From positions 3,902,507 to 3,966,506 of the forward strand of contig NZ_JH976537.1 in NCBI RefSeq assembly GCF_000309385.1: a stretch of 64,000 bases of DNA. Reading direction: 5' to 3'. The position numbers and the translations under genes were made by a program. Positions 11,296 through 30,809 of this stretch are shown here, one piece after another. The number at the start of each line of letters is the position of its first letter. Within the stretch, counting starts at the first letter, position 1. Under the pieces are notes generated by a model. The model was given only the letters and a program-made list of their open reading frames with translations. It was not told the origin of the DNA and did no database searches. This DNA comes from Nodosilinea nodulosa PCC 7104. GTDB taxonomy: Bacteria > Cyanobacteriota > Cyanobacteriia > Phormidesmidales > Phormidesmidaceae.

Positions 11296-13053
11296 ATGTC
11301 ACAGCCCCCCTGCCCCGATGCCAAGATAGATGCCGAGCTATACCTCGCCGCCCTGAACCACCTACCGGACGCGGTGATTGTAGTGGATGCGGCAGGGGCG
11401 CTCCTGTTTACGAACACCGCCGCTGAAGCGCTGCTACCGGGGGGAATAGCGGGCCTAGGGGGCCAGGGCAAGTCGTCGGCGTACCAGGTGCTGGATTGCC
11501 AGCACCGCCCCCTTGCCGCCGCTGATCTTCCCCTGGGCCGCGTGCTGGGGGGCCAGCATGTGCAAGCCGAAGAACTTGTGCTGGTGATCAGTTCGCCGCC
11601 CTGCACCCGCTGGGTGACGGTGACGGGAGAGCCGCTGTCGACGGTGGGGGGAGCCGCCGCGCTGCTCACCCTGCGAGACATTTCTGGGGCCAAACAGCAT
11701 GAGGACAGCCTGCTCAAGCAGGCGTTTCACGATCTCCTCACCGGGTTGCCCAACCGCTATCTGCTCATGGATCGCCTTAGCTATGCCCTGGCCCGCGCCC
11801 AGGACCACCCCCAGGTCTCCATGGCGCTGCTCCTGATCGATCTCGATCGGTTTAAGGCCATTAACGACAACCTGGGCCACCAGGCGGGCGACAATTTGCT
11901 GGTTGAAGTCGGCACCCGGCTGCGATCGCAGCTGTGCCCCAACACCACCCTGGCTCGCCTCGGCGGGGACGAGTTTGCGATCCTGCTGGAGGACGTTGCC
12001 AGCAGCAGCGCCGCCGTTGATCTGGCCGAGCAGATTCACGCCGCGATCGCCCAACCGTTCTTTCTCAACCACCAGGAGGTGTACCTAGATGCCAGTATCG
12101 GCATTGCCCTCGGCCCCGCCGCCTACGAAAGCGCTGGCGACTGGCTGCGCGATGCCGACATCGCCCTGTGTCAGATCAAAAGTAACCCTGACCAAGCTTG
12201 GCACGTCTTCGATAGCTCGCTTCAGGTGCAGCAAGACCTCCGCTTGCAAACCGAGATAGACCTGCGCCAGGCCCTGATCTGCAACGAACTGCGGCTGCAT
12301 TACCAGCCCATTGTCACCCTCAACAACGAAGAGATTTGCGGCTTTGAGGCGTTGGTGCGGTGGCAGCACCCCACCCGAGGGCTACTCATGCCGGGAGAAT
12401 TTATCCACATTGCCGAGGCGACCGGGCTTATTATTCCCCTGGGCTGGTGGGTGCTGGCCGAAGCCTGCCGCCAGATGCACCTGTGGACCACAGAATTTCC
12501 GGCCATGGCCAACTTTACGGTCAGCGTCAATATGTCGAGTAAGCAGTTCTCCCAGCCGAACCTGGTGGAGAGAATTCAGGAAATTTTGGCCGAAACAGGG
12601 TTTACCGCCAATCGGCTCAAAATTGAAATCACCGAAGGCGTACTCATTGACCATTCCGACAGCATTATCGCCACCCTGGCGCAGATTAAAGCGCTGGGCA
12701 TTAAGCTGCTGGTGGACGACTTTGGCACAGGCTACTCCTCCCTGAGCTACCTGCATCGCTTTCCCTTTGATTGCTTGAAGATTGACCGTTCATTTATCGA
12801 AAATGCCGATCAAGACTTTGAAAAGCTAGAGATTTTGCAGTCGGTGGTCCGCCTAGCCTGGAATCTGGGCCTAGATGTGGTCGCCGAAGGGGTTGAAACC
12901 TCCCGCCACCACGCCCAGCTCAAGGCCCTGCGGTGCGAACTGGGCCAGGGCTTTCTGTTTTCTCGGCCGCTGTCGCCCGCTGCCATTGAGGCTATGATGG
13001 CGAAAAAAAACGCCAGCTCCCTCGACCCGACCGCAGAACCTCCCTCCGCCTAG
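11296..13053 (+). CDS. PAS-GGDEF-EAL c-di-GMP turnover protein
   Basis: A 585-residue protein. Residues 15-130 are a PAS-like sensor (LNHLPDAVIVVDAAGALLFTN). The GGDEF domain follows, with an intact GGDEF motif at residues 223-227 (LARLGGDEFAILLED). The inhibitory I-site RxxD expected just before it is CPNT, so product inhibition should be absent. The EAL domain has an intact EAL (351-353, CGFEALVRWQHP) and DDFGTGYSS (near 474), plus QGFLFSRPL at the end. Both cyclase and phosphodiesterase activities are therefore possible. No membrane segment, so probably cytosolic. The start at MSQPPCP is chosen just before the PAS domain. Confidence 0.9.
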   Translation: MSQPPCPDAKIDAELYLAALNHLPDAVIVVDAAGALLFTNTAAEALLPGGIAGLGGQGKSSAYQVLDCQHRPLAAADLPLGRVLGGQHVQAEELVLVISSPPCTRWVTVTGEPLSTVGGAAALLTLRDISGAKQHEDSLLKQAFHDLLTGLPNRYLLMDRLSYALARAQDHPQVSMALLLIDLDRFKAINDNLGHQAGDNLLVEVGTRLRSQLCPNTTLARLGGDEFAILLEDVASSSAAVDLAEQIHAAIAQPFFLNHQEVYLDASIGIALGPAAYESAGDWLRDADIALCQIKSNPDQAWHVFDSSLQVQQDLRLQTEIDLRQALICNELRLHYQPIVTLNNEEICGFEALVRWQHPTRGLLMPGEFIHIAEATGLIIPLGWWVLAEACRQMHLWTTEFPAMANFTVSVNMSSKQFSQPNLVERIQEILAETGFTANRLKIEITEGVLIDHSDSIIATLAQIKALGIKLLVDDFGTGYSSLSYLHRFPFDCLKIDRSFIENADQDFEKLEILQSVVRLAWNLGLDVVAEGVETSRHHAQLKALRCELGQGFLFSRPLSPAAIEAMMAKKNASSLDPTAEPPSA

Positions 13054-16610: not shown

Positions 16611-17897
16611 ATGATTCGCGAAGTTTTCATGCCCGCCCTGAGCTCGACCATGACCGAAGGCAAGATTGTGTCTTGGGTCAAAGCCCCCGGTGACAGGGTG
16701 GAAAAGGGTGAAACCGTGGTGATTGTCGAGTCTGATAAGGCCGATATGGATGTGGAATCCTTCCACGAGGGCATTTTGGCGGCCATTGTCGTAGAAGCAG
16801 GCGGTACGGCCCCGGTGGGAGAGGCGATCGCTCTCCTCGCCGAAACGGAGGCTGAAGTAGAAGCGGCCAAGCAGCAGGCGGCGGCCAAAGCCGGTTCCGC
16901 TTCTCCATCGGCGGAACCGGCTACTGCCACTCCGGCCCCCGTGGCTGTGGTTGAAGCGCCCACCCCCGCCACCCAAAACGGCGCCGCTGCGGCTAGCAGC
17001 GGTCGAGTGGTGATCTCCCCCCGCGCCCGCAAATTGGCCAAGGATCTCAAAGTAGATCTGGCCGGCCTCCAGGGCAGCGGCCCCCACGGCCGTATTGTGG
17101 CCCAGGATGTCGAACTGGCGGCGGGCAAAACCCCCACTCCCGCAGGTCCGGTAGCCACTCCCCTAGCCGCTGTAGCCCCCTCTATTTCTGCTGCTTCTGC
17201 CCCGGCTCCCAGCTCCGCCCCCCTGGGCCAAGTGGTGCCTTTCAACACCCTCCAGCAGGCCGTGGTGCGCAACATGGTCGCTAGCCTGGCGGTGCCGACG
17301 TTCCACGTGGGCTACACCATTACCACCGACAACCTTGACGCCCTCTACAAGCAGATTAAATCTAAGGGGGTGACCATGACCGGGCTGCTGGCCAAGGCTG
17401 TGGCCGTGACGCTGCAAAAGAATCCCCTACTCAACGCGGCCTACACCGACCAAGGCATTCAGTACAGATCCGGTATCAATGTTGCGGTCGCTGTAGCCAT
17501 GGAGGGGGGGGGACTGATTACCCCGGTCCTCAAAAATGCCGATCAGTACGATATTTACTCCCTCTCCCGTACCTGGCGCGACCTGGTGGAGCGATCGCGC
17601 TCCAAGCAGCTTCAGCCTGATGAGTATAGCTCGGGCACCTTTACCCTGTCGAACCTGGGCATGTTTGGGGTCGATCGCTTTGACGCTATCCTACCGCCGG
17701 GACAGGGATCCATCCTGGCGATCGGGGCCTCCCGTCCCACCGTAGCGGCAACGGCTGACGGTCTGATGGGCATCAAGCGGCAGATGCAGGTCAACATTAC
17801 CTGCGATCACCGCGTGATTTACGGGGCCGATGCCGCCGCCTTCTTGAAAGACCTGGCCAACATGATCGAAAATAATCCCCAGTCCTTGACCCTGTAG
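16611..17897 (+). CDS. pdhC: Pyruvate dehydrogenase E2 (dihydrolipoamide acetyltransferase)
   Basis: A 428-residue subunit of the pyruvate dehydrogenase complex; it passes the acetyl group from lipoate to CoA. Domains in order: the lipoyl domain (residues 1-78) with the lipoylated Lys in ESDKADMDVES near residue 43; an Ala/Pro linker; the E1/E3-binding domain (RVVISPRARKLAKDL, GSGPHGRIVAQDV) near 128-165; an Ala/Pro/Ser linker; and the catalytic domain with ITCDHRVIYGADAA near the C-terminus. One lipoyl domain is usual in cyanobacteria. The start is MIREVFMPAL, the family start; longer frames are not conserved. Confidence 0.95.
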   Translation: MIREVFMPALSSTMTEGKIVSWVKAPGDRVEKGETVVIVESDKADMDVESFHEGILAAIVVEAGGTAPVGEAIALLAETEAEVEAAKQQAAAKAGSASPSAEPATATPAPVAVVEAPTPATQNGAAAASSGRVVISPRARKLAKDLKVDLAGLQGSGPHGRIVAQDVELAAGKTPTPAGPVATPLAAVAPSISAASAPAPSSAPLGQVVPFNTLQQAVVRNMVASLAVPTFHVGYTITTDNLDALYKQIKSKGVTMTGLLAKAVAVTLQKNPLLNAAYTDQGIQYRSGINVAVAVAMEGGGLITPVLKNADQYDIYSLSRTWRDLVERSRSKQLQPDEYSSGTFTLSNLGMFGVDRFDAILPPGQGSILAIGASRPTVAATADGLMGIKRQMQVNITCDHRVIYGADAAAFLKDLANMIENNPQSLTL

Positions 17898-18109
17898 CCC
17901 GATCACCTTCTACGGCCCGGGCTCAGCTGCCGCAGCTATGGACGATTAGGGCTGAGGCTATCTCCAGCCCGCCTCTGTCGCCAGACTCCTCCAGTCTCTT
18001 TAGAGAAGGGCAACGGATGGCTGGTGTAGCCCCAATACTGAGGGGTTTTGTCCCCAGCTTAACTACGGCTTGATATTCTGAAGGCATCTTGCCCTCTGCC
18101 CAGCGCGCC

Positions 18110-19531
18110 ATGAACTCAGTCGATCTCGCCTTCTTGCCCGCCCTCGAACAGGCCCGGCTGATCCGCGCTAGGGAAATCTCGCCCCTGGAGCTCACGGAGA
18201 TCTATCTAGAGCGGATTGGGCGGCTTAACCCGGCCCTGGGCGCCTACGTCAAGGTCATGGCTGAGCCAGCCCTGGCCGATGCTAAAGCTAAAACCGAACA
18301 CCTGGCCAGCAATCCTGAGCACTTGCCCCCCCTGTTTGGGGTCACGGTGTCGGTCAAAGACCTGAATCCGGTAGAGGGTGTGCCCTGCGCCTACGGGATC
18401 AAGATGGCCTGCGACCGCATTGCCGACCAGGACGACTACATCGTGGGCAAGCTGCGCCAGGCGGGGATGATTATTCTCGGCAAAACGGCCACCTCTCAGC
18501 TAGGATCGCTGCCCTACACCGAGCCACCGGGCTTTCCTCCCGCCCGCAACCCGTGGAATTTAGACTACACGCCGGGCGGGTCGAGCGGCGGCGCGGCGGC
18601 GGCCCTGGCCGCGGGGCTATGCGCCATTTCCCAGGGGTCTGACGGGGGCGGGTCGCTGCGGGGACCTGCCTTTTGCTGCGGCCTGGTAGCCATGAAAGCA
18701 GCTCGCGGACGGATTAGCTTTTCGCCAGGGGGGGAGCGGCTCAACGGGCTGGCCGTCAACGGCCCCCTGGGGCGCACCGTGGCCGATACCGCCGCACTTT
18801 TGGATGTCCTCAGCGGTTACGAACTGGGCGATCCCTACTGGCTGCCCGATCCAGACCCATCCTTCCTGGCTGGGCTAAATACTCCGCCTAGACCCCTGCG
18901 GATTGGCTATGCTACTCGCCTGGATCCGATCGGTGAGGTTGATCCAGTTTGCCGTCAGGCTATCTATGACACCGTGCGGCAAGTTGAAGACCTGGGCCAC
19001 ACCGCCGAAGAAGTTACCTTCCCCAACCTGGAAGACTTGATTGAACCCTTCGTGGTGGTGTGGGAGAGCGTGCTGACAGAGGTAGGGGTGCCCTGGATTG
19101 TGATGGAAAAAATGAACCGCTGGCTCTACTGGCGGGCCTGGCGGATCAACAGTGGCGCTTACCTACAGGCGGTAGCCAAGCTACAGCAGGTGGCCCGCCG
19201 AATTGTGCAGTTTTGCCACCCCTACGACGTGCTGATTTTGCCCGTGTACATGCACCAGGCCATCAAAGTGGGGGCGTGGAAAGGGCTGCGATCGCCCAAA
19301 ATTCTTGACAACGTTATCAACTGGGTGGCTCCCTGCCCGCCTTTCAACGCCAGCGGCCAGCCTGCCCTGGCTATTCCTACCGGGTTTGCCCCCAGCGGTG
19401 TGCCGGTGGGGGTCCAGCTGGTGGGTCGTCCCGCCGATGAAGCCACGCTGCTGGCATTGGCCACCCAGCTGGAGCAGGCTCGTCCTTGGAGCCACCAGCG
19501 CCCTACCTTTGCTGACCAGACCGAGACCTAG
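18110..19531 (+). CDS. Amidase (amidase signature family)
   Basis: A 473-residue enzyme of the amidase signature family. The Ser-cis-Ser-Lys machinery is complete: Lys in VSVKDLNPVEG (near residue 83), the motif TPGGSSGGAAAALAAG, and the cis-Ser in GSDGGGSLRGPA, followed by ALAIPTGFAPSGVPVGVQLVG near the end. Such enzymes hydrolyse amides to acid and ammonia. The amide substrate is not deducible. The gene is not beside gatB or gatC and the C-terminus is not GatA-like. Start at MNSVDLAFL. Confidence 0.9.
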   Translation: MNSVDLAFLPALEQARLIRAREISPLELTEIYLERIGRLNPALGAYVKVMAEPALADAKAKTEHLASNPEHLPPLFGVTVSVKDLNPVEGVPCAYGIKMACDRIADQDDYIVGKLRQAGMIILGKTATSQLGSLPYTEPPGFPPARNPWNLDYTPGGSSGGAAAALAAGLCAISQGSDGGGSLRGPAFCCGLVAMKAARGRISFSPGGERLNGLAVNGPLGRTVADTAALLDVLSGYELGDPYWLPDPDPSFLAGLNTPPRPLRIGYATRLDPIGEVDPVCRQAIYDTVRQVEDLGHTAEEVTFPNLEDLIEPFVVVWESVLTEVGVPWIVMEKMNRWLYWRAWRINSGAYLQAVAKLQQVARRIVQFCHPYDVLILPVYMHQAIKVGAWKGLRSPKILDNVINWVAPCPPFNASGQPALAIPTGFAPSGVPVGVQLVGRPADEATLLALATQLEQARPWSHQRPTFADQTET

Positions 19532-19632
19532 GGCAGCATCCGCCGCCAAAGACGGGCGAGTTTCAGGTGAATTTTGGGGTTAATGGTCGGATTTGGCCCG
19601 TTAGCTAGGGCTCTTTGCCCTGTCTCCATTGA

Positions 19633-19736
19633 TATAGCTGTAGCCAGTCTGGTTAAGACATGTTTCCTATGAACGTTCAAACGTTTGAACGTTCATAGGG
19701 TTTCTGGATGCCCTAACCAACGTGACTATCGCTATA
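19633..19736 (+). mobile_element. Palindromic MITE-like element, copy 1
   Basis: A 104-base unit with ends TATAGCTGTAGCCAG and its inverted counterpart GACTATCGCTATA. The centre is a perfect palindrome of about 34 bases built on AACGTTCAAACGTTTGAACG (19676 onward). It lies between the amidase and SLC13 genes. It is nearly identical to 22067-22170 and related to three other copies. TA at both ends suits IS630/Tc1-type target duplication. No coding capacity. Confidence 0.85.
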
Positions 19737-19995
19737 AAATAGAGGGCAAAAACCTAATCTGTTGTGAAGTTTATTTCAAAACAATTACCTTTTGAATTCA
19801 GTTCAAACGCAGCTCATCTATATTGATGGGGCGTAATTAACGGGATCGTACGTCAGGTGAGCTACCGGGCTGCGTTCCTCAGGGGCTGGCAAATCTGCTA
19901 CGGCTCTCTGCTAGCCTCTTTTGGCGCCATGGACCGATCCCATAGGTTTAGTTTGATTCCTATACATCCAGGGCAGCGCCCTCGATCAGCCTTTT
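19737..19995. promoter_or_regulatory. Promoter region of the SLC13 permease with repeated TTCAAA half-sites
   Basis: TTCAAAA (19775-19781), TTTTGAA (19790-19796) and TTCAAA (19802-19807) form two overlapping inverted repeats with spacers of 8 and 5 bases. This arrangement is typical of an operator for a dimeric regulator, about 190-220 bases before the permease start. No regulator is identified. No gene is seen in the rest of the gap. Confidence 0.35.
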
Positions 19996-21936
19996 ATGGA
20001 CTACGATCCGCTCCAGGACAGGCAACGGTTTGAACCGCAGGCAGCGCAAAACCAGGCCCGCAAGGGCGATCTGACTGTGCTTCTGCTCACTGTGTCCCTC
20101 ATCGTTGGGGTGGTGCTGCTGGGGGGAGTGGCCCTCGCCCTAGGGGTGGTGTCCCTGCCAGGCCAGCTCACCGGGGCCGGTTGGTTGACCATCGGGGTAA
20201 CGCTGGCTGCTTTTTTGCTCAACGCCCTGACGCCCCTGCCGGCGGAGGCCATCTTTTTGGCGGCCCTGGCTACTCTACTGCTGTCCGGGGTGCTTGATAC
20301 CGCCACGGCTTTAGCCGGGTTCAGCAATCCTGGCATGGTGACGGTGGGCGTTTTATACGTGGTGGTGGCAGGGCTACAGCAAACTGGCGGGCTGGACATG
20401 ATTTCGCGATCGCTGCTGGGGCTGCCCAAGGGGCAAACCATGGCGCTGCTGCGGCTCATCGTACCGGTTTTGGGCATGAGTGCTTTTCTCAATAACACGC
20501 CGATTGTGGCGATGTTTATTCCGGTGGTGAGCGACTGGTGCCGAAAACTGCGCATCAGCCCCTCCAAGCTCATGATTCCGCTCAGCTATGCCGCCATTAT
20601 GGGGGGCATGTGCACACTGATTGGCACCAGCACCAACCTGGTGGTCAACGGGCTGCTGGTGTCTGAAACCGACTACCCCGGTCTTAAGCTATTTGACCTG
20701 GTGCCCGTAGGGGTGCCCTGCGCGATCGCGGGGACGCTGATGCTGACCTTGGCCCAGCGCTGGCTTCTGCCCCAGCGCAAGCCCGCCATCACCGACACCG
20801 ACGATCCGCGCGAATATACCGTAGAAATGGTCGTTGAAGACCACAGCCCCCTGGCGGGAAAAACTGTTGAACAGGCGGGCCTGCGCCATCTGCCAGGGCT
20901 TTACCTGACCGAAATTCAGCGGCAGGGGCGGCTGCTAACCGCCATTGGCCCCCAGGAAACCCTGCAAGCGCAAGATCAGCTTGTCTTTGTGGGCATGGTC
21001 AATTCCATCGTTGACCTCAGCCACATCCGGGGCCTACAGCCAGCCACCGACCAGGTCTTTAAGCTCGATACCCCGCGCACCGAGCGCACTCTGGTCGAAG
21101 CCGTGGTTTCCAACACCTGCCCGCTGGTGGGCATCACCATTCGCCAGGGCAAGTTCCGCAGCCGCTACGGAGCCGTAGTGCTGGCAGTCGGGCGCAACGG
21201 CGAGCGACTGCCCGGCAAAATTGGCGACATTCGCCTGCAAACCGGCGATACTCTGCTGCTGGAGGCCAATCCGGCCTTTCTAGAGGAGCGCCGCGCCTCG
21301 CGGGATTTTTATCTGGTCAGTGAGATTCCCAACTCCGACCCCCTGCGCCACGATCGCGCCCCGGTTGCCCTGGCCATTTTGGTGCTGATGGTTGCCCTGG
21401 CCACCTCGGGTTGGATGGACATGCTCAACGCCGCCATCCTGGCCGCGCTGCTGGTAGTCATCACAGGCTGCTGCTCATTTCAGCAGGGCTTTCGCGCCAT
21501 CGACTGGTCGGTACTGCTGGTGGTGGCTGCGGCCCTAGGGCTGGGCAAGGCGCTGGAGGTCACCGGGGCTGCCGCCGCACTGGCGGGGGGGATGCTGGGC
21601 TTTGCTGGCGATAACCCCTGGATTGCCCTGACCATTGTCTACGGTGTTACGACCATTCTGACCGAGGTAATTACCAATAACGCAGCGGCGGCGGTGGTGT
21701 TTCCCATTGCGCTATCGCTGGCTCAAACCCTGGAGGTGAGCTTTATTCCCTTCGTGGTGGCTATTATGATTGCGGCTTCCGCCAGCTTTAGCACCCCCAT
21801 TGGCTACCAAACCAACCTCATGGTGTACGGTCCGGGGGGCTACAAGTTCACCGACTTCATGCGCATCGGCATTCCCTTCAATCTGGCCTTTTGGCTGCTC
21901 ACGGTGCTGATTGCCCCACGGGTGTATCCGTTCTAG
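19996..21936 (+). CDS. SLC13/DASS-type permease with two RCK_C domains
   Basis: A 646-residue inner-membrane transporter. It has an N-terminal membrane half (helices from about residue 25 to 260, including SAFLNNTPIVAMFIPVV and IGTSTNLVVNGLL), two soluble TrkA-C/RCK_C domains (about 275-345 and 365-430), and a C-terminal membrane half with VITNNAAAAVVFPIA and FSTPIGYQTNLMVYGPG. The paired SNT/NN motifs are those of the divalent anion:Na+ symporter family; relatives carry sulfate or dicarboxylates. In phototrophs this layout is often a low-affinity sulfate transporter, which is an inference here. The gene lies between two MITE-like copies. Confidence 0.88.
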   Translation: MDYDPLQDRQRFEPQAAQNQARKGDLTVLLLTVSLIVGVVLLGGVALALGVVSLPGQLTGAGWLTIGVTLAAFLLNALTPLPAEAIFLAALATLLLSGVLDTATALAGFSNPGMVTVGVLYVVVAGLQQTGGLDMISRSLLGLPKGQTMALLRLIVPVLGMSAFLNNTPIVAMFIPVVSDWCRKLRISPSKLMIPLSYAAIMGGMCTLIGTSTNLVVNGLLVSETDYPGLKLFDLVPVGVPCAIAGTLMLTLAQRWLLPQRKPAITDTDDPREYTVEMVVEDHSPLAGKTVEQAGLRHLPGLYLTEIQRQGRLLTAIGPQETLQAQDQLVFVGMVNSIVDLSHIRGLQPATDQVFKLDTPRTERTLVEAVVSNTCPLVGITIRQGKFRSRYGAVVLAVGRNGERLPGKIGDIRLQTGDTLLLEANPAFLEERRASRDFYLVSEIPNSDPLRHDRAPVALAILVLMVALATSGWMDMLNAAILAALLVVITGCCSFQQGFRAIDWSVLLVVAAALGLGKALEVTGAAAALAGGMLGFAGDNPWIALTIVYGVTTILTEVITNNAAAAVVFPIALSLAQTLEVSFIPFVVAIMIAASASFSTPIGYQTNLMVYGPGGYKFTDFMRIGIPFNLAFWLLTVLIAPRVYPF

Positions 21937-21972
21937 GGCTTTTGCTCTAACCATTGTGGGGTGCTTTAACCC

Positions 21973-22019
21973 AAAAAACAGGGCCTAGATCGCGTCAATG
22001 CGGCGGATCTTAGGCCCTG
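21973..22019 (-). terminator. Rho-independent terminator, probably of comFB
   Basis: On the minus strand CAGGGCCTAAGATC pairs with GATCTAGGCCCTG (one bulged base) around a loop of about 14 bases and is followed by TTTTTTGGG. It points in the direction of comFB transcription but is separated from the comFB stop by MITE copy 2. On the plus strand it may also help end the permease transcript. Confidence 0.7.
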
Positions 22020-22066
22020 GGGACTGGTGACAGAAAAGGAGTAATCTACCCTTGGCAGCGCTGCTA

Positions 22067-22170
22067 TATAGCTGTGGCCAGTCTGGTTAAGACAGGTTTC
22101 CTATGAACGTTCAAACGTTTGAACGTTCATAGGGTTTCTGGATGTCCTAACCAATGTGACTATGGCTATA
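22067..22170 (+). mobile_element. Palindromic MITE-like element, copy 2
   Basis: A 104-base unit nearly identical to copy 1 and in the same orientation: TATAGCTGTGGCCAG at the left, the AACGTT palindrome in the centre, GACTATGGCTATA at the right. Its right end overlaps the 3' end of comFB; the TAG stop at 22166-22168 lies inside the TATAGCC end. It thus inserted at or near the end of comFB and separates the gene from its terminator. Confidence 0.88.
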
Positions 22171-22711
22171 CCTTCCCGGCCGGCTCAAACTTGTGAGCGT
22201 GGTCTTGCAGCAGTGAGCTGACCTGGTTGAGCACGTTGTCGCCACCCTTTTTCTGGATGGTTTGGCGCTCGGGGTAGAAGTCGGGCTGATCGAGGTTGCG
22301 CGAAATAGCCTGCTGCACCTGCTCAGCAATTAGAGCGGACAGATCGCCACGGGCATTTTCCCGCTGGAAGTTGGCGCCTTCTTCGGTGGTGGCGTAGAGA
22401 GGCGGCAGCCGGTTGAGGGCATAGGCGGCAATATCGCCCAGATCGAGGGTTTTGTCGGAGGTGGCCTCAATTTCGGCCACCCGTGAAATCGCCTCGGTCA
22501 GCACCAGTTCTTCCATCACGTTAATAAACTGTTTCCGGGGCACCGCTACCACTTCGCCAGTTAACAGGGCACCCATCAGGCGATCGAGGGCCATGTATTC
22601 TTCAATGGAAAGCTCAGCGGCCGTGTCGCAAATGCGACCTACTTCGGCTTCCATAGCAGGGGTGAGGTAGCCGTCTTGTAGGGCTTGCTCAACAATCTTT
22701 TCAATGGTCAT
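22166..22711 (-). CDS. comFB: Late competence development protein ComFB
   Basis: A 181-residue protein. The ComFB core runs from about residue 50 to 135: GEVVAVPRKQFINVMEELV, the helix EAISRVAEIEATSD, and DIAAYALNRLPPLYATTEEG. Cyanobacterial ComFB-type proteins are reported as cyclic di-nucleotide receptors linked to pili and natural competence. The extra N-terminal 45 residues (MTIEKIVEQALQDGYLTP) are usual for the cyanobacterial form. The stop codon is supplied by the end of a MITE-like element, so the original C-terminus may have been a little different. It is transcribed after hfq with a gap of about 160 bases. Confidence 0.88.
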   Translation of the reverse strand: MTIEKIVEQALQDGYLTPAMEAEVGRICDTAAELSIEEYMALDRLMGALLTGEVVAVPRKQFINVMEELVLTEAISRVAEIEATSDKTLDLGDIAAYALNRLPPLYATTEEGANFQRENARGDLSALIAEQVQQAISRNLDQPDFYPERQTIQKKGGDNVLNQVSSLLQDHAHKFEPAGKV

Positions 22712-22868
22712 TTGGCCAAACGCTCCATAAAATGGGTGGATTAACGGCTTTTTTGGAAAATAGCGGACTGGAATCAACAGGGTAGGCATCCACCTGGGTG
22801 TAGTGTGCCCGAATCGATTAGGCAGACTACAGGAACCTATGAAGACTGCTTAGGGACACCAGGGCGAA

Positions 22869-23081
22869 TTAAGAATATTTGAGGAAGCCAATGGCCTGCT
22901 TCCAAATCTGGTGCTTGCGCTGATCTTCGGTTTCTACGCAGATGCATTGGGGGTCTTGCCACAGGACACGACCAGAAATCACGTCGCCGGTAATGAGCTT
23001 GACCTCGACGGGGTCTTTATCGCGAATTAGGTTTTGAACCTGGCGAACACTCGGAAACCCGGTGGCAAACTCTTGAGACAT
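22869..23081 (-). CDS. hfq: Cyanobacterial Hfq-like RNA chaperone
   Basis: A 70-residue Sm-fold protein. Recognised by FPSVRQVQNLIRDKDPVEVKLITGDVISGRVLWQDP-type sequence (written here only as landmarks: LIRDK, VEVKLITGD, GRVLWQD) and the end KQAIGFLKYS. The Sm1 and Sm2 strands are present but the classical Hfq KHAI motif is replaced (KQAIGF), as in cyanobacteria. In Synechocystis this protein acts at the base of type IV pili by binding the C-terminus of PilB1 and is needed for motility and DNA uptake. It sits directly upstream of comFB. Confidence 0.92.
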   Translation of the reverse strand: MSQEFATGFPSVRQVQNLIRDKDPVEVKLITGDVISGRVLWQDPQCICVETEDQRKHQIWKQAIGFLKYS

Positions 23082-23315
23082 GGTGCTACGCCACTGAACT
23101 TATGCTGGTCTTACGGTACCCTGTTTGGCCCGTATAGGTTACAGACAGGGGCAATTTGTTAAGAAATCTGCGCGGCCTCGGGTCGGGCTTTGGGCCAGGC
23201 TCCGGGAAGGCGATCGCGCCGCCGGCCTCGCTAAGGCTAGCCGCAGAGCTGAGATATCGCTGGTTCTGTAGTCTTCACCACTGCGGTGGTTGGGGACATT
23301 TGCTGCAATCTTGTC

Positions 23316-25145
23316 ATGACAACTACCCTCCGCGCCTTGCCAACCGATCGATTTATCGATATCCCGCCGCCGCTGGGCCAGGTGGTGGCAGAGTATCGCA
23401 TTTTGCCTGGAGAGGCGATCGCCTACCCGGTTGCCGCAGGCCAGTACATACAGATCGTTGATGTAGCTGGATCCCAATGCTCTGATTTTCTTGCCTTTGG
23501 CGGCGGTGACCACAGCGATCCGCTAGACGCCACGGTCACCAGAACGCTCACCGGAGTAGCGGTGCCCCAGGCGGGGCTGCCCGGCAAAGCCTTTTCCCAA
23601 TCCATGCAGCCGCTCACCGAGGTCATTCAGGACACCTGTGGTCGCCACGACAGCTTTTTGCTGGCCTGCACCGCCCGCTACTACGAAGAGGCGGGCTACC
23701 CAGGCCACCCCAGCTGTAGCGACAATTTTAACCGGGTGCTGGCCCCCTACGGCATTGCGCCCCGCTCCGGCTGGCCCGCCCTCAACTTTTTCTACAACAC
23801 CAGTATCGATTGCCACGGCGCTGTAGGGTTTGAGGAATCTCTCTCTCGCCCCGGCGACTATGTGCTGCTGCTGGCCCACCAAGACTTGCTCTGCGCCAGT
23901 TCTGCCTGCCCCGACGACATTGACCCGGCCAACGGCTGGCAACCAACTCCCATTCACGTTCGCATCTATGCAGCGGGTCAGGTCTTTGGGCGAGCCATGG
24001 GACGGCGGGTGGCGGCGGACTTTCCCCTGAGGCTGACCCAGGACAGTGCCTTTACCCCGGCCATTCGGCAGCTGACCGACGATCTGGCTGAATACAACGG
24101 GTTTTGGGTGCCGCGCAGCTTTGCCCACCAGGGCGACCAGGCGGAGTACTGGGCGCTGCGCCAGCGGGCCGCCCTGATGGATCTGTCGGCCCTGCGCAAG
24201 TTTGAGGTGCAGGGTAGCGATGCCTTTACCCTGTTGCAGTACGCTTTTTCGCGCAATCTGGAAAAGGTGTCACCGGGGCAGGGGGCCTACGGCTGCTTGC
24301 TCAACCCCCACGGCGGCATCGTCGACGACGGCATTGTGTTTTGTTTTAGCCCCACCCACTACCGCTACGTGGGCAACTGCGACACCGATAGAGCCTGGCT
24401 AGGGCAGATTGCCAGAGAGCAGGGATGGTCGGTGAAGGTGGAGGTGGTAGATCGCCACAACCTAGCCATCCAAGGCCCCCTCTCCCGCGACATCCTCAAA
24501 ACCCAGAGCCCTGAGGCGGCAGCGCTCGGCTATTTCCGGTTTATGGAAACCCAGGTGCAGGGCATTTCAGTCTTGATCTCTCGCACTGGCTACACCGGGG
24601 AACTGGGCTACGAGCTGTTTGTAGAGCCCCAAAATGGTGCCGTTCTGTGGGACCTACTCATGCAGGCGGGCCAGCCTGTTGGACTGATGCCCCTGGGGAT
24701 GAAAGCCCTCGATCGCGCTCGCATAGAGGCCGGGCTGCTAGCGATGGGCTACGAATTTGACGACTTAATCTCCCCTTACCAGGCGGGCATTGGCTGGGCC
24801 GTGGCTATGAAAAAGCCCGATTTCATTGGCAAAGCAGCGCTGGAGGAGATTCGCCGCCATCCCCCTCGGGTGGCGGTGGGGCTGGTGCTAGAAGGCCCAG
24901 AGGTGGCGGCCCACGGGCAGCCGGTCTTTGCGGCGGGCCAACGATGGCGGGTGGGACACATCACCAGCGCCACCTTCTCGCCCATGCTCAACGCCAGCAT
25001 TGCCATGGCCCAGGTCGTACCCGAGTACGCCGAGGCGGGCATGGCGGTGGAAGTAGGCATGCTAGACGGGCTAAAACGCCGCATTCCTGCGACGGTGGGA
25101 CCTCTAGCAGCCTTTGACCCTACCAAAAGCCGGGTACGAGTATGA
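23316..25145 (+). CDS. DUF1989 - GcvT (aminomethyltransferase) fusion protein
   Basis: A 609-residue fusion. Residues 10-225 are a DUF1989 domain with its conserved polar residues GRHDSFLLAC (109-118), GHPSCSDNF (130-138) and CASSACPDDIDPANGW (about 193-208). DUF1989 includes the two subunits of carboxyguanidine deiminase, formerly urea-carboxylase-associated proteins. Residues 265-600 are a GcvT/folate-dependent aminomethyltransferase fold: ALMDLSALRKFEV, the DD at 337-338 (GGIVDDGIVF, the Asp position that contacts folate), SRTGYTGELGYELFVE (Glu 429) and the C-terminal barrel. The natural guess is a C-N cleavage that passes one carbon to tetrahydrofolate, but the substrate is unknown. The start is at MTTTLRAL. 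It overlaps the next gene by 4 bases (ATGA). Confidence 0.88.
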   Translation: MTTTLRALPTDRFIDIPPPLGQVVAEYRILPGEAIAYPVAAGQYIQIVDVAGSQCSDFLAFGGGDHSDPLDATVTRTLTGVAVPQAGLPGKAFSQSMQPLTEVIQDTCGRHDSFLLACTARYYEEAGYPGHPSCSDNFNRVLAPYGIAPRSGWPALNFFYNTSIDCHGAVGFEESLSRPGDYVLLLAHQDLLCASSACPDDIDPANGWQPTPIHVRIYAAGQVFGRAMGRRVAADFPLRLTQDSAFTPAIRQLTDDLAEYNGFWVPRSFAHQGDQAEYWALRQRAALMDLSALRKFEVQGSDAFTLLQYAFSRNLEKVSPGQGAYGCLLNPHGGIVDDGIVFCFSPTHYRYVGNCDTDRAWLGQIAREQGWSVKVEVVDRHNLAIQGPLSRDILKTQSPEAAALGYFRFMETQVQGISVLISRTGYTGELGYELFVEPQNGAVLWDLLMQAGQPVGLMPLGMKALDRARIEAGLLAMGYEFDDLISPYQAGIGWAVAMKKPDFIGKAALEEIRRHPPRVAVGLVLEGPEVAAHGQPVFAAGQRWRVGHITSATFSPMLNASIAMAQVVPEYAEAGMAVEVGMLDGLKRRIPATVGPLAAFDPTKSRVRV

Positions 25146-25657
25146 ATGACATCACGATCTATCACCCCTGGGATATGGCGGGGGTAGACGGGCTGGTGGC
25201 TGCCAGAGCCCTGTTTGGGGAGTCGGTGGACTATCTGGCTCCGTTTCAGTCGATGGAGACCGTCTTGGGGGGAGAGGCTTGCTCGGTGCTGCGGTTGTGC
25301 GATCGCAATTTTCGCATCACCTACCCTGGCCCCCTCGACCAAATCCTCTCTGAACTCAAGCTTCAGCTCTGGGTCAAGCAGCTGGAGTGGATGCGGGCAG
25401 TTGTGTTACCTGTTGACTGCTTGCCTGCGATCGCAGCCCAGGCCACGACCAAAGCTCCCCATCGGCTTCAACCCCTGCCCCTGCACTGCGCCGCACCAGC
25501 CCAGATCAACCCTATTCCGGCGCTGCTTTGGCATCATCCTATTGACAATTGGCCAACCCTGGAAGTCCATCTGGCCTATCGCCAAATTGCGGAGTTTTGG
25601 GATCGAATTCAATCTCCCACTTACAGTTCAGTATCGCTCACTACAGCCCATACTTAA
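25142..25657 (+). CDS. Unknown protein coupled to the DUF1989-GcvT fusion
   Basis: A 171-residue protein whose ATG overlaps the stop of the fusion gene (ATGA), a sign of translational coupling and a shared task. It starts MNDITIYHPWDMAGVDGLVAA and has a Cys-containing middle (GGEACSVLRLCDRNF), but no motif I recognise. No signal peptide or membrane segment is seen. The N-terminal 110 residues look like a folded domain; the last 60 are Pro/His-rich. A partner subunit or assembly factor for the fusion protein is possible. Confidence 0.75.
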   Translation: MNDITIYHPWDMAGVDGLVAARALFGESVDYLAPFQSMETVLGGEACSVLRLCDRNFRITYPGPLDQILSELKLQLWVKQLEWMRAVVLPVDCLPAIAAQATTKAPHRLQPLPLHCAAPAQINPIPALLWHHPIDNWPTLEVHLAYRQIAEFWDRIQSPTYSSVSLTTAHT

Positions 25658-25910
25658 TTTGCATTGCACACTCTTGACATAACAAGCTGGTCAAGCCCAG
25701 CAGGGTAATTTGGCCGCTTAGCTTCAGCCCATTAAAACCGTTCCACGATTATTCTTGGCCAGTCCAGATATCGTTTATTTGGTGTAATTTAGGCTGTCTT
25801 AGTGGGTAGTTTTACCAATGCTTTTAGGCCTACCTCAATCAAGATAAGCCATCCTTTCAGGCCTTGTTTGCGTTCCCTTGTACATCTTCATGGACAGTTA
25901 GGAGTGATTT

Positions 25911-27308
25911 ATGTCTCCTGAATCGCAAGAGTTTTTAGCAACTTTTGTATCAGAGTCTTTCTACTACTGGGCCTCTGTGCTCATGTTGCTAATTCACGTA
26001 GGCTTCTTAGCCTATGAAGGTGGCGCAGCCCGCACTAAAAACGTTTTGGCCACGATGGTCAAAAACCTGATGACCCTGTCTCTGGTGGGCTTGACGTTCT
26101 TTTTCTTTGGCTGGTGGGTGTACAACGCCTTTCCGCTGTTTCCGCTCCAGGGCGGTATTGTGGGGCCGTGGACAGATCCCGCCTCCGAGGGGACTGTGGG
26201 CGATGTGCTGGCCCTGGTACAGGCTTCCTACCCCTGGTCGCCGGCCCTTGGCCCCAACCTTGCCGACAACCTGACTGGGGTGTTTTGGTTTGCCTTTGCG
26301 CTGTTTGCCATGACCACCGCATCGATTCTTTCCGGGGCGGTCATCGAGCGCATTAAGCTTGGCAGCTATGCCATCCTGGCGATTGTGCTGGGTTCCTTTA
26401 CGTGGGTGGTGGCGGCGGCCTGGGGCTGGAACCCCTACGGCTGGTTTTTCACCCAGATGGGCTACCACGACTTTGGCTGTTCCGCCGTGGTCCACGCGGT
26501 ATCGGGCTTCTTTGCCCTGGGCGTAGTCATCAATCTTGGCCCCCGCATCGGCAAGTTCGATAGCCAGGGCAAGCCCAGGGTGATCATGCCCCACAACCTG
26601 CCCCTCACAATGGTGGGGCTAATGCTGATTTTCGTCGGGTTTTACGCCTTTTTGGCCGCCTGTGTGATTTTTGTGCCCGGTCAAACCGGTGAGATTAGCA
26701 TCTACGGTACGCCAATGACCCTGGCATCGGTCGGCGTAAGCACGACGTTAGCGCTGTCAGCGGGCCTAATTGGAGCCTATATGGGCTCTAAGGCCGACCC
26801 TTTTTACACCATCTCCGGTGGCCTGGCCGGCATTATCTCGGTAGGGGCGGGGATGGATCTTTACAGTCCTGCAATTGTGATTGTTTTAGCTTTTATTGGT
26901 GCCTACACAATGCCATTTGTGGGCAACGCAATTGAAAGAGCTGGAATTGACGATGCCGTTGGTGCCTTTGCGGTACACGGCTACTGCGGGATGTTTGGGT
27001 CCTTGATGGTAGGCATTTTCGCGGCTGGTTACCCTATGCCTGAGGGTATTCCCGCCATCAATTTTGGGGCTCAGCTAATTGGCGCTTTGATTTGTGCTGT
27101 TCTCTTGGGCTTTATTCCCGGCTATGGAGTGAGCTTTGTGCTCAAGAAACTCGGTATGCTGCGCGTTTCTGAAGCCGAAGAGATCGCTGGTTTAGACCTG
27201 GCTGACTTTGGCATTGGGGGCTATCCAGAATATTCGATTTTGCCTGAGCAGAACGGTCACCCTAGCGTAGCTACTCTGGAGATGACTGAGGTGAGTCCTA
27301 AGTCTTAG
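25911..27308 (+). CDS. amt: Divergent Amt family ammonium transporter
   Basis: A 465-residue membrane protein with about 11 helices. Amt hallmarks are present: the twin His in the pore at 195 (DFGCSAVVHAVSG, with the conserved Asp) and 356 (DDAVGAFAVHGYCGMFG), the SGAVIERIK motif near residue 141 and GWNPYGWFF. The first helix region EGGAARTKNV departs from the usual YGGxVRxKN, and the loop at 80-120 is unusually long. It moves ammonium, or possibly methylamine, across the inner membrane. AGGAG lies 6 bases before the ATG. It follows the DUF1989 pair by 250 bases and is followed by a small membrane protein. Confidence 0.88.
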   Translation: MSPESQEFLATFVSESFYYWASVLMLLIHVGFLAYEGGAARTKNVLATMVKNLMTLSLVGLTFFFFGWWVYNAFPLFPLQGGIVGPWTDPASEGTVGDVLALVQASYPWSPALGPNLADNLTGVFWFAFALFAMTTASILSGAVIERIKLGSYAILAIVLGSFTWVVAAAWGWNPYGWFFTQMGYHDFGCSAVVHAVSGFFALGVVINLGPRIGKFDSQGKPRVIMPHNLPLTMVGLMLIFVGFYAFLAACVIFVPGQTGEISIYGTPMTLASVGVSTTLALSAGLIGAYMGSKADPFYTISGGLAGIISVGAGMDLYSPAIVIVLAFIGAYTMPFVGNAIERAGIDDAVGAFAVHGYCGMFGSLMVGIFAAGYPMPEGIPAINFGAQLIGALICAVLLGFIPGYGVSFVLKKLGMLRVSEAEEIAGLDLADFGIGGYPEYSILPEQNGHPSVATLEMTEVSPKS

Positions 27309-27352
27309 GCGGGGAGTTTTTGGGATGCTAGAAACTTTGAGGAGCAAGTGAT

Positions 27353-27793
27353 ATGTCAAGCCCGTTTTCCACCTATGCAGAGTTTGAAGGCGCCGTAGAT
27401 GGCCCTACCGGCGGTGCTATTTACACCTTTGCCAACAGCCCTGCCGTCAATATCATTGCGCTTTTAATCGGCGTTGGGTTCTTGATTTGGTTCATTGTTA
27501 GAACCTTCTCGACCCATTACGAAGTCCCGGCGGTGGATAGGTCGCTCAACCATCTGAGCGCATTTATTGTGGCGGGGTTGCTCTCTTTGACCGGTGCCGC
27601 CTATCAGCAGACGGTTCAGCCCAATCAGCCAGCGGAAGCGATGACCCAGGCGATGACCCACCGTCCGGGAACTCCAGCAACGCTAGGTCTGTTGGGTCTA
27701 TTGGGGGTAGGGCTTCCCGGTCGACAGCGACGGTCCAAGGCTGGGCTCAACAAGCGATCGCGCCCTCGGGGTCTCTACCGCGACATTAAATAA
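27353..27793 (+). CDS. Small membrane protein in operon with amt
   Basis: A 146-residue protein that starts 44 bases after amt with a clear GAGGAG ribosome binding site. It has two membrane helices (about residues 33-53, NIIALLIGVGFLIWFIVRTF, and 67-84, HLSAFIVAGLLSLTGAA). The rest is a polar loop and a basic tail (LPGRQRRSKAGLNKRSRPRG) that should face the cytoplasm. No family is recognised. The position suggests an accessory subunit of the transporter. Confidence 0.75.
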   Translation: MSSPFSTYAEFEGAVDGPTGGAIYTFANSPAVNIIALLIGVGFLIWFIVRTFSTHYEVPAVDRSLNHLSAFIVAGLLSLTGAAYQQTVQPNQPAEAMTQAMTHRPGTPATLGLLGLLGVGLPGRQRRSKAGLNKRSRPRGLYRDIK

Positions 27794-27890
27794 AAAATCG
27801 TCGCGCTAGGGTGTGCGGCCTTGCGTTTTTGGCCTTGACGGCCCGTAGCGTAGTTTTGTTGTTCTCAAGCGTTCCGTATGAACCCACACT

Positions 27891-27926
27891 ATGCCCTGCG
27901 GCGATTGGCCAGCGGGGCATTTTTTT
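27891..27926 (+). terminator. Rho-independent terminator after the amt operon
   Basis: ATGCCCTGC pairs with GCGGGGCAT (one G-U pair), with a loop around CGATTGG, and is followed by TTTTTTT. It lies about 100 bases past the small membrane protein gene on the same strand. Confidence 0.75.
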
Positions 27927-28014
27927 GGCTCCAGGCCCAGCGCCGCAGAATGAGCCTAGAAAACAGCGCTGGCGCTATGATTTGGCGTAGCGAAGCGCAG
28001 GATAGCTTAAATTG

Positions 28015-29664
28015 GTGACTATTGCGGATTTAACCCAACAGGAGAGCTGGGAGCGGGCACAGGCTGGCGATATGGGGGCGATCGCCCGTCTGATTGCCTT
28101 TGCCATTAACCCTAGCCAGAGGCCGTCCCCGGTGAAAGTAGAAGCATCGCGGCGGGATGGTACCCTCTACGTCTTTCTGACCGCCGCCCCGCCCCGACAG
28201 CTAGAAACCTACCTGCAAGCCATTCGCGCAGTTGTCAGCGCCCTGAACCTGACGGCCATCACTCAGCTCAAGGTGCTGGATGGGGCTGAAAAACGCTTGC
28301 TCAATCGCTGGCAATACGACTTTAGCCTTGCGCCTGCTCCGTCTGCCGCTCCGCCGCCTCAGCCCGCTAGACTCGCCTTGGCTGAGAGCGCCCCTGGAAC
28401 AGAGTCGATTGCTCTTGCCCCGGCTGCCGCTGGCGATCGAAGGCCCAGCCCGGCGGAGCCGCGCCGCCGGGGGTGGATGGTATTGCCGGCCGCGATCGCC
28501 CTGGGCTTTGGGTTGGCGGCGGGCGTCACCCAGTGGCGCTACGGCCAGCAGCCCAACTCTGCCCGTCCGTCCGAACCCCAGGACACCGAAGTGGCCTCCA
28601 ACCGCAGCCCCGAGGCCACCCCCACGGCATCCCTCCCGGCCGGGGCTCTCAGCGATTCGGCACCAGCGGCAGCGGGCGCGGCCCCCCCTCCCAATCCTGC
28701 CCCCGTCGCCCTCACCATCAAAGCCGTGGGCGACATAATCCCCGGTACCGACTATCAGCGCTACCGCCTGCCCGACGACTGGCAATACCTGTTTCGCAGC
28801 ATCCAGTACCAGCTGAGCGATGCCGATATCACCTTCGGCAACTTTGAAAGTACCCTCACCGAGGTGCCCAACAGCGCCAAGGACACCAGCCGCGGCAACA
28901 CCTTTGCCTTTCGGACCCCGCCCTGGTACGCCAGCGTGCTCAAAGAAGCCGGGTTCGATGTTCTAAATGTGGCCAACAACCACTCCATGGATTTCTTTGA
29001 GCAGGGATTCAATGACACCATCGCCAATATCGAAGCAGCCGGGATGCAGGCGGTAGGCCGCAAAGGCGAGATTTTGTACGTAAAAGCCCACGGCAAAACC
29101 GTGGCATTTATTGGCTTTAGCACCTACAGCGAGCACAACTCGGTCAATGATTTAGATACCGCGATCGCCCTGGTAGAAACCGCCAAACAGCAGGCCGACA
29201 TCGTCGTCGTCTCCTTCCACGGCGGCAAAGAGGGCACCGACGCCACGGTCACCCGTGACCAGGACGAATACTTCTACTCCGAAAATCGCGGCAACCTGGT
29301 GCGGTTCTCCCACACCGTCGTCGACCACGGGGCCGACCTGGTGCTGGGCCACGGTCCCCACGTCCCGCGCGCGATCGAGCTGTACAACCACAAACTGATC
29401 GCCTACTCCCTGGGCAATTTTTTGGGCTACCGCAGCCTCTCTACCGTAGGGCCTCTGGGCATTTCGCTCATTTTACAGGCCGATCTCGACGCCCAAGGCA
29501 ATCTGGTCGGCGGGCGCATCATCCCCGTTGCCCTCGACAAAAATGGCGTCCCCTACCTGGATGATCACTTCGGCAGCGTAGTCTTGCTGCGCCAGTTCAC
29601 CCGGCGCGACTTCCCCGACACGCCGCTAAAAATTGACGACCTGGGCTACATCTGGCCCCAGTAA
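28015..29664 (+). CDS. CapA-like metallophosphatase-fold membrane protein
   Basis: A protein of about 549 residues. Residues 1-105 are a soluble domain of unknown function common in cyanobacterial proteins (DLTQQESWERAQAGDMGAIA). A single membrane helix (about 155-175) and an Ala/Pro-rich linker follow. The CapA/PGA-cap domain runs from about residue 235: KAVGDIIPGTD, GNFESTLTEV, LNVANNHSMDF, VVSFHGGKEGTD, LVLGHGPHVPRAIE and IAYSLGNFLGY. The metal-binding Asp, Asn and His residues are present. CapA proteins act outside the membrane in poly-gamma-glutamate or polysaccharide formation. The start is GTG or the TTG just before it. Confidence 0.88.
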   Translation: MTIADLTQQESWERAQAGDMGAIARLIAFAINPSQRPSPVKVEASRRDGTLYVFLTAAPPRQLETYLQAIRAVVSALNLTAITQLKVLDGAEKRLLNRWQYDFSLAPAPSAAPPPQPARLALAESAPGTESIALAPAAAGDRRPSPAEPRRRGWMVLPAAIALGFGLAAGVTQWRYGQQPNSARPSEPQDTEVASNRSPEATPTASLPAGALSDSAPAAAGAAPPPNPAPVALTIKAVGDIIPGTDYQRYRLPDDWQYLFRSIQYQLSDADITFGNFESTLTEVPNSAKDTSRGNTFAFRTPPWYASVLKEAGFDVLNVANNHSMDFFEQGFNDTIANIEAAGMQAVGRKGEILYVKAHGKTVAFIGFSTYSEHNSVNDLDTAIALVETAKQQADIVVVSFHGGKEGTDATVTRDQDEYFYSENRGNLVRFSHTVVDHGADLVLGHGPHVPRAIELYNHKLIAYSLGNFLGYRSLSTVGPLGISLILQADLDAQGNLVGGRIIPVALDKNGVPYLDDHFGSVVLLRQFTRRDFPDTPLKIDDLGYIWPQ

Positions 29665-29933
29665 GGGCTTCGGCCAAAAGGATAGCTGGGGGATCGATAG
29701 CTTAATAGGGCCAATCCTCCAGTTCTGGCCAGTGGCCGCAGAGCCTGCCTACAGCGCAACGGCGATCGCGACGAAACCCAGCCAGGGAAGGAAGCCAACC
29801 TGCTACCAATGACAGTGTTATGCCCAACGGCAGGCGCGCTAGCGTTGTGTAAAGCGGCTGTGACAGTTGCACGTCACCAATGCTGCGCGTCAGCTGTACC
29901 TCATTAGCATTGCGTTATCAATAAGGAGGCATT

Positions 29934-30809
29934 GTGCCAATTTCCATTCGAGACGATGTAGTATTCATCATTCTCAGGAAAATTCAGGAGTTTGACCAAA
30001 ACAGTCAGCAGGGAGAGATAGATTTTTCCTCCACCGACTTCACTGGATTAGGGCTAACCCAGGCCAGTCTCCTGGGCCACTTAGACTACCTCAACCAGAA
30101 GCATTACATCGACGCCGAGTTTAGCGGAAACGCCTACGGCAACCAGGACGACGTTCCCAACCTGGTCAACCCAGAGGAGGTAGACTTCCGCGTTGCCAAC
30201 ACCTGGGGCGCCGAAGACGGCCCCCTACCCCACCTGGTAGCCTTCAAGCAGGCCACGCTGACCGAGAAGGGGCAGAGCATGCTGGCCGAGATGGAAGCGA
30301 ACCCTCCAAAAGCTTTAGATCGAGGGCCAAAAGTACCGCTGCTGAACGAGCAAACGCCGTTCTTAGAAAAGGTCAAAGTCAAGGGCGGCCTGTCGGATAT
30401 CTACGATGCTCGAGACATTAGTGAGACTGTTTTTCGCGTCATGCGAGACGTCATGACAACCGCAGAGGCCGATCGTGTACAGGCAGAACTTCACGAGTCT
30501 GCTCTATCCACCCAGGAAAAAGCCCTGCAAATGGAAGTTGCCGATCTTTGGAAAGATAGAAACCCCATTGTGGGTCTGCTGAGTCGCCTGCGGCCGCCGC
30601 TGAAGGGGGCAGCCCCCTTGGGCATTGACTCCAAACTCTTTTTGACCAGGGTAGATAATGAAGCCGGTGTGCCCAAGATGGCTAACGCAGAAACTGTCGT
30701 TTCTGCCGTCTTTTCAGCCACCAAAGATGAGCTTTCCCAGGAGCGCATCGAGGCCGTTGCCGAATGGCTACCCGAGGGGAAAGTGCGCGAACTCTGGCAG
30801 GCCGCCTGA
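29934..30809 (+). CDS. DUF2267 domain protein
   Basis: A 291-residue cytosolic protein with a GTG start and a strong AAGGAGG ribosome binding site 5 bases upstream. Residues 1-110 look like a small helical/winged-helix domain (IREFDQ-like N-terminus, TQASLLGHLDYLNQKHYIDAE-type elements). Residues 145-290 match DUF2267: FLEKVKVKGGLSD, ETVFRVMRDVMTTAEADRVQAE, NAETVVSAVFSATKDELSQERIE and EWLPEGKVRELW. DUF2267 is of unknown biochemical function. MITE copy 3 and a terminator follow. Confidence 0.82.
   Translation: MPISIRDDVVFIILRKIQEFDQNSQQGEIDFSSTDFTGLGLTQASLLGHLDYLNQKHYIDAEFSGNAYGNQDDVPNLVNPEEVDFRVANTWGAEDGPLPHLVAFKQATLTEKGQSMLAEMEANPPKALDRGPKVPLLNEQTPFLEKVKVKGGLSDIYDARDISETVFRVMRDVMTTAEADRVQAELHESALSTQEKALQMEVADLWKDRNPIVGLLSRLRPPLKGAAPLGIDSKLFLTRVDNEAGVPKMANAETVVSAVFSATKDELSQERIEAVAEWLPEGKVRELWQAA

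Follow-up and report, generated by a model that had tools for sequence, protein, structure and literature searches.

The locus of Nodosilinea nodulosa PCC 7104 considered here raises two questions, namely what reaction is served by a chain in which a DUF1989 domain is joined to a GcvT-type aminomethyltransferase domain, and what the small gene coupled to it contributes. The original prediction, made from the letters of the window alone (the window being the whole stretch of 64,000 nucleotides that was analysed), saw a candidate new C–N cleavage system with an orphan partner. The window is part of a 6.1 Mb contig in a genome of 6.9 Mb, and the relevant features are:

23316..25145, + strand: tdm-like gene, putative two-domain N-oxide demethylase (Pfam, NF053776, PDB 9q59/9q5a, invariant residues, start codon)
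~23397-23891, + strand: DUF1989 domain of the tdm-like gene (Pfam)
24072-24800, + strand: GCV_T domain of the tdm-like gene (Pfam)
24867-25118, + strand: GCV_T_C domain of the tdm-like gene (Pfam)
25142..25657, + strand: orf171, predicted GcvT fold without folate-site residues, proposed Tdm accessory subunit (alignment, model, hhalign, Foldseek, VIA, co-occurrence)
25631..25644, + strand: GTA-N8-TAC box upstream of amt, within the 3' end of orf171 (17/17 loci examined)
25911..27308, + strand: Amt-family transporter gene, a linked neighbour (PF00909, linkage)
27353..27793, + strand: small membrane-like ORF of 146 codons that travels with amt (ORF list, linkage)

The layout read from the letters is borne out. 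DUF1989 (E 6.7e-45), GCV_T (E 1.2e-65) and GCV_T_C (E 2.8e-16) lie in a single ORF; the 171 codons of orf171 begin at 25142 and overlap the tdm stop at 25143-25145 as ATGA; and downstream come the Amt-family gene (PF00909, E 1.7e-63) and the membrane-like ORF, for which no Pfam family was found under E 0.05. The ATG at 23316, from which residues of the window Tdm are numbered, is preferred over a GTG at 23286, since an in-frame stop occurs just upstream in the relative L004. A block of about 52 bases before this start (23264-23315) is near-identical in nine Nodosilinea-type loci, and the sequence farther upstream diverges. An Rfam scan of 17500-30000 returned no matches. The fusion is single-copy in the genome, where three other matches cover the GcvT part only, and its closest named relatives are in Nodosilinea and Leptolyngbya-type cyanobacteria.

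As a kind of gene, the fusion is already known. Judged from its sequence, 23316-25145 is a shortened cyanobacterial relative of the known TMAO demethylase (Tdm), so that the novelty first claimed for it falls away: such a fusion has already been characterised with this activity. The best family model is NF053776, at 781.1 bits against a curated cut-off of 1100, and the best solved structures are the Tdm entries 9q59 and 9q5a, with window residues 16-618 lying on chain 168-786. According to PMC12560246, the Methylocella silvestris enzyme carries Zn on C263, C279 and C343, with H276 and D346 proposed as Fe residues and D198 proposed earlier as a bridging residue (chain numbers of 9q59 and 9q5a equal that numbering + 22). 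The counterparts in the window, C118, C134, C198, H131, D201 and D57, are invariant in 20/20 rows of the homologue alignment. Equally invariant in the 20 homologues are the residues whose retention had been pointed out beforehand, the folate-contact pair Asp337 and Asp338, Glu429 of GYTGELGYE, and His131 and Cys134 of GHPSC. Relative to 9q59, the 9q5a chain has Ala in place of two Asp residues, those corresponding to D57 and D200 of the window protein; the five Neomegalonema rows carry Ser at position 200, where the window has Asp. The predicted structure of the window Tdm is middling (pLDDT 75.6, pTM 0.64), and Foldseek with this model returned GcvT and DUF1989 chains, with 9q59 absent among the 50 rows listed, an absence from which we conclude nothing.

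The window protein thus shares with the Methylocella enzyme the order DUF1989 then GcvT, a full-length match and the metal residues, but it scores under the cut-off, has a coupled partner gene of GcvT fold, and lacks the N-terminal DUF1989-like domain, positions 1-151 of NF053776 being unmatched. All cyanobacterial copies with a visible start are likewise two-domain, the match being preceded by no more than a short leader, whereas alphaproteobacterial copies and nearly all actinobacterial copies checked are three-domain. Within the phylum of locus L019, Tdm was found in 11 of 396 sampled genomes, and ten of these matched the three-domain query from residue 1-7, the remaining one (G790) only from residue 121. 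In a 40-row Tdm tree, a fully supported branch separates the 23 cyanobacterial rows from all others; because the tree is unrooted, it gives no direction as to loss of the N-domain in cyanobacteria or its gain elsewhere. In PMC12560246 the N-domain is termed ubiquitous, but sequences of low query cover were excluded from the set used there.

The second component is orf171. The window protein is assigned to no family by Pfam or NCBIfam models, and Pfam gave no match at E up to 10. Across 25 members of its family, Pfam found GCV_T in two (best E 0.0022) and three other families in one member each (E 0.066 to 0.26), and in a rescan of ten orf171 proteins L012 alone matched. The 25 relatives align at 52% mean column identity (alignment A1), on which ground a random ORF was rejected. 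When A1 was compared with the Tdm alignment (A2) by hhalign, orf171 proved colinear with the GcvT domain, residues 289-449, over 156 columns at 15% identity with a probability of 94%. A stretch common to both proteins, LFGE, had raised the suspicion that orf171 is a split-off N-terminal domain of Tdm; this was rejected, as hhalign placed it on the GcvT domain even though the N-domain is present in eight of A2's 20 rows. With the AlphaFold model of orf171 (pLDDT 90.1, pTM 0.83) as query, Foldseek matched the T-protein 1yx2 (E 2.6e-7); matches of a length similar to orf171 included two sarcosine oxidase gamma subunits (2gag_C, E 7.9e-4; 1vrq_C, E 1.4e-3). VIA placed the model on 1yx2 with Z 14.2 and an rmsd of 2.3 over 158 residues; SoxG chains are absent from the VIA rows, which hold one chain per entry, so this does not count against a resemblance to SoxG. 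A PDB sequence search with A1 gave two MHC chains at E 0.33, a chance result.

In the hhalign alignment the folate-site Asp pair falls in a gap of orf171 and GYTGE is lost. We read orf171, on the basis of its predicted structure, as a GcvT-fold subunit without folate function. With GcvT itself it shares the fold and the homology to the folate domain, which is also present in the C-terminal half of Tdm; it differs in having neither the Asp pair, GYTGE nor the C-terminal barrel, while Tdm differs from GcvT by its fusion to DUF1989. SoxG offers an analogy, as orf171 is also a small stand-alone GcvT-like domain beside an enzyme with a GcvT domain of its own. However, the 25 orf171 members have no match to the SoxG sequence family up to E 1, and the presumed partner is Tdm rather than a flavin oxidase. 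The gene first taken for an orphan is real and strongly linked, and its GcvT-like fold is the newer part of the finding.

The linkage of the two genes, whose absence would have spoken against the original prediction, is conserved and is not due to chance. Both match side by side in 20 of 22 cyanobacterial loci (within this set L010 has only a fragment of the small gene, and L029 and L032 only the end of tdm); of the other two loci, L009 is cut off by the end of its contig and L030 has a broken tdm. In most loci orf171 overlaps tdm or directly follows it. Among 63 family genomes, tdm occurs in 27 and orf171 in 28, with both in 25, neither in 33 and a single gene in five (Fisher p 4e-12, uncorrected for kinship); two of the 25 match in part, G048 at residues 7-52 of orf171 and G018 just at the tdm end. 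The genomes with tdm alone have a broken gene (G055) or a partial match from base 3 of a contig (G057), and those with orf171 alone (G043, G044, G003) hold fragments. Both genes are kept even where they are separate, by about 355 kb in G058, by 0.7 kb in G004 and on different contigs in G008. They also decay together: two loci that have lost tdm still carry remnants next to amt, of orf171 in L089 and of both genes in L090. In the phylum sample, tdm was found in 3/386 genomes and orf171 in 4/386, these being the same three and G067, whose locus L067 also contains a tdm fragment. In eight genomes with a three-domain Tdm, a search run without a positive control found no orf171. A decaying cluster was seen in L093 (G055; same organism contig as L030), with tdm broken, orf171 not found and PhyH shortened, in which the ACAD-like, amine oxidase, amt and glutamine-synthetase-like genes are still present. 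Taken as a whole, orf171 is probably a partner of Tdm, which it may bind physically.

The amt gene adjoins tdm–orf171 in genomes of the Nodosilinea type and in several others; three Neomegalonema loci (L022-L024) have it near tdm, on the opposite strand. Because amt stays where tdm and orf171 have been lost (L089, L090), we regard it as a neighbour and not as a part of the enzyme. A GTA-N8-TAC box, which we take to be the NtcA consensus, stands 234 to 357 bases before amt in each of the 17 loci, about nine of which are Nodosilinea-type close kin; such a box also appears in 11% of shuffles of one 450-base stretch. Upstream of tdm it was found in only 1 of 14 loci. The amt gene is perhaps nitrogen-regulated. 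Residues 160-171, the low-confidence tail of the orf171 model, may owe their retention to this DNA site.

A wider set of genes accompanies tdm. In L008, L011 and L016 a PhyH gene, a gene for a flavoprotein resembling acyl-CoA dehydrogenases (ACAD-like) and a copper amine oxidase gene precede tdm, and L011 and L016 additionally have solute-binding-like and glutamine-synthetase-like genes; the same five genes occur in the window's genome about 134 kb outside the window (L081). The ACAD-like gene lies at:

L081:10227-11651 (G000; protein at G000:C1:3768253-3769626); L018; L019:1577-2995; also L105-L111 and L113

By eye, L081 also shows an IS110-like transposase ORF between the ACAD-like and amine oxidase genes (12004-13002) and an acetamidase/formamidase-like ORF adjoining the glutamine-synthetase-like gene (427-1902, - strand). 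No signal peptide was seen in the solute-binding-protein-like genes at L011:611-1372 (-; PF00497) and L081:8116-8859 (-), a gene kept in tdm clusters of both the ACAD and the Tmm type. A PhyH-like gene directly follows tdm in the actinobacterial loci L106, L109, L110 and L111, with 46% identity to the cyanobacterial PhyH-like protein. The copper amine oxidase is broader in distribution, occurring in 37 of the 63 family genomes (25/27 with tdm, 12/36 without).

The ACAD-like gene alternates with that for Tmm, the known FMO-type trimethylamine monooxygenase, which makes TMAO. Several cyanobacteria have Tmm close to tdm or orf171 (L028, with NF058570 above cut-off; L062 and L063 by similarity), and NF058570 is above cut-off in 5/63 family genomes. 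The 27 tdm-bearing family genomes divide into 19 with the ACAD-like gene, five with Tmm and three with neither (G001, G023, G024), and among the 36 without tdm the ACAD-like gene occurs in one (G041) and Tmm in none. The two were never found together in the genomes searched; the chance of zero overlap is 0.0007 on the assumption of independent genomes, which these are not. In the 11 actinobacterial Tdm genomes, the ACAD-like gene adjoins tdm in nine, Tmm lies in the fetched stretch in two, and none has both within that stretch. L018 is one further ACAD case, and neither gene is present in the stretch examined for the five Neomegalonema rows, L014 and L015. On the Tdm tree the two types are interleaved, with at least four label changes forced by well-supported branches, some rows being copies of one genome. 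Identity of the ACAD-like proteins between cyanobacteria and actinobacteria is about 60%. All 39 rows of the protein, several of them copies of one genome, carry MGPTNE aligned to YEGTNQ of 8i4p, so the Glu of the YEGT stretch, presumably the catalytic base of acyl-CoA dehydrogenases, is not kept. The simplest reading is that the flavoprotein takes the place of Tmm as the producer of the N-oxide, which suggests a second route to the substrate; it is also possible that it acts at a later step, on dimethylamine.

We propose the following mechanism of how the locus might work. The DUF1989 domain, which carries the metal site, would cleave TMAO or a close tertiary amine N-oxide to dimethylamine and formaldehyde, a turnover predicted from kinship to the Methylocella enzyme, and the GcvT domain of Tdm would accept the formaldehyde as a one-carbon unit for tetrahydrofolate. 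Having lost its folate site, orf171 would bind Tdm and help to hold or shape it, perhaps replacing the missing N-terminal domain; heterotetrameric sarcosine oxidase, with its gamma subunit, would offer a parallel. The computed evidence is the family, the absence of the N-domain, the kept metal residues, the fold of orf171, and its co-occurrence and co-decay with tdm, from which we infer the substrate, the formaldehyde transfer, and the physical binding and role of orf171. The earlier idea of an N-methyl compound taken apart with its one-carbon unit passed towards tetrahydrofolate was thus probably right in kind, with dimethylamine, not ammonium, as the expected amine.

Several points count against this proposal. 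The NF053776 cut-off is missed. Loss of tetrahydrofolate binding in Methylocella Tdm has been argued from a model in which Y101 and R223 of E. coli GcvT become F487 and L618, and the window Tdm has the same Phe (F342) as F487; the same paper reports that adding tetrahydrofolate reduced formaldehyde release and that the separated domains were inactive (PMC12560246). Searches of the window's genome found neither Tmm (at E 1e-60) nor a match to PF11927, the dimethylamine monooxygenase family, so that in this genome known enzymes account neither for where TMAO comes from nor for what becomes of dimethylamine. Weighing these points, we hold with reasonable though incomplete confidence that the locus encodes a two-domain Tdm-type N-oxide demethylase with orf171 as a GcvT-fold subunit bound to it. 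We offer more tentatively a fuller version, as a conceivable but not the expected outcome, in which a two-subunit TMAO demethylase, with orf171 standing in for the N-domain, is fed in most lineages seen by an N-oxide-making ACAD-fold flavoprotein instead of Tmm, as a cyanobacterial route for scavenging methylamines.

The alternative that survives best retains Tdm chemistry and changes the substrate: in ACAD-type lineages the flavoprotein would make a different N-oxide or an N-hydroxylated amine. Most tdm-bearing family genomes, the window's included, indeed have the ACAD-like gene and no Tmm, and the position of D200, whose counterpart is altered in 9q5a, is not constant among homologues, with Ser in the five Neomegalonema rows. 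However, the window retains Asp at this position along with the metal residues, other cyanobacteria have this two-domain Tdm next to Tmm, and the two types interleave on the tree; we consider this alternative unlikely. It is more doubtful still that orf171 does not bind Tdm at all and instead has a regulatory role or works with another product of the cluster, be it Amt, the flavoprotein or the amine oxidase. Its separation from tdm in G058, where it lies beside Tmm (L082), and in G008 would fit such a role, but orf171 tracks tdm rather than Tmm or the ACAD-like gene alone, is kept in genomes of both types, usually overlaps or directly follows tdm, and is lost with it where amt persists. Lastly, a guanidino or amidine enzyme of the urea-amidolyase-associated kind, to which the DUF1989 half had been likened and for which a weak match to those models and an amidase gene in the window (18089-19531, Pfam) could be cited, is very improbable and was rejected on the scores (TIGR03424, 99.4 of 284.7 bits; TIGR03425, 66.8 of 205.95; Tdm model, 781) and on Tdm being the full-length structural relative. 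UAAP1/UAAP2, the kind to which carboxyguanidine deiminase belongs, share the DUF1989 fold but have no folate domain.

Among the pools of organic nitrogen, methylated amines are an important one. Aerobic TMA/TMAO metabolism is established in marine bacteria such as Ruegeria (PMC13390433). No description of a cyanobacterial Tdm or of its flavoprotein partner was found among the titles and abstract beginnings listed from the open-licence literature; the words tdm and cyanobacteria both occur in PMC9999580. What is newly recognised here is a probable GcvT-fold partner of two-domain Tdm, with a likely N-oxide substrate in cyanobacteria and a putative role for the partner. By this proposal the orf171 family acquires a fold and a testable partner. 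That Tmm and the ACAD-like gene replace one another next to this demethylase in two phyla may indicate an amine oxygenase not recognised so far. A kept route of this kind in filamentous cyanobacteria would add phototrophs to TMA/TMAO metabolism.
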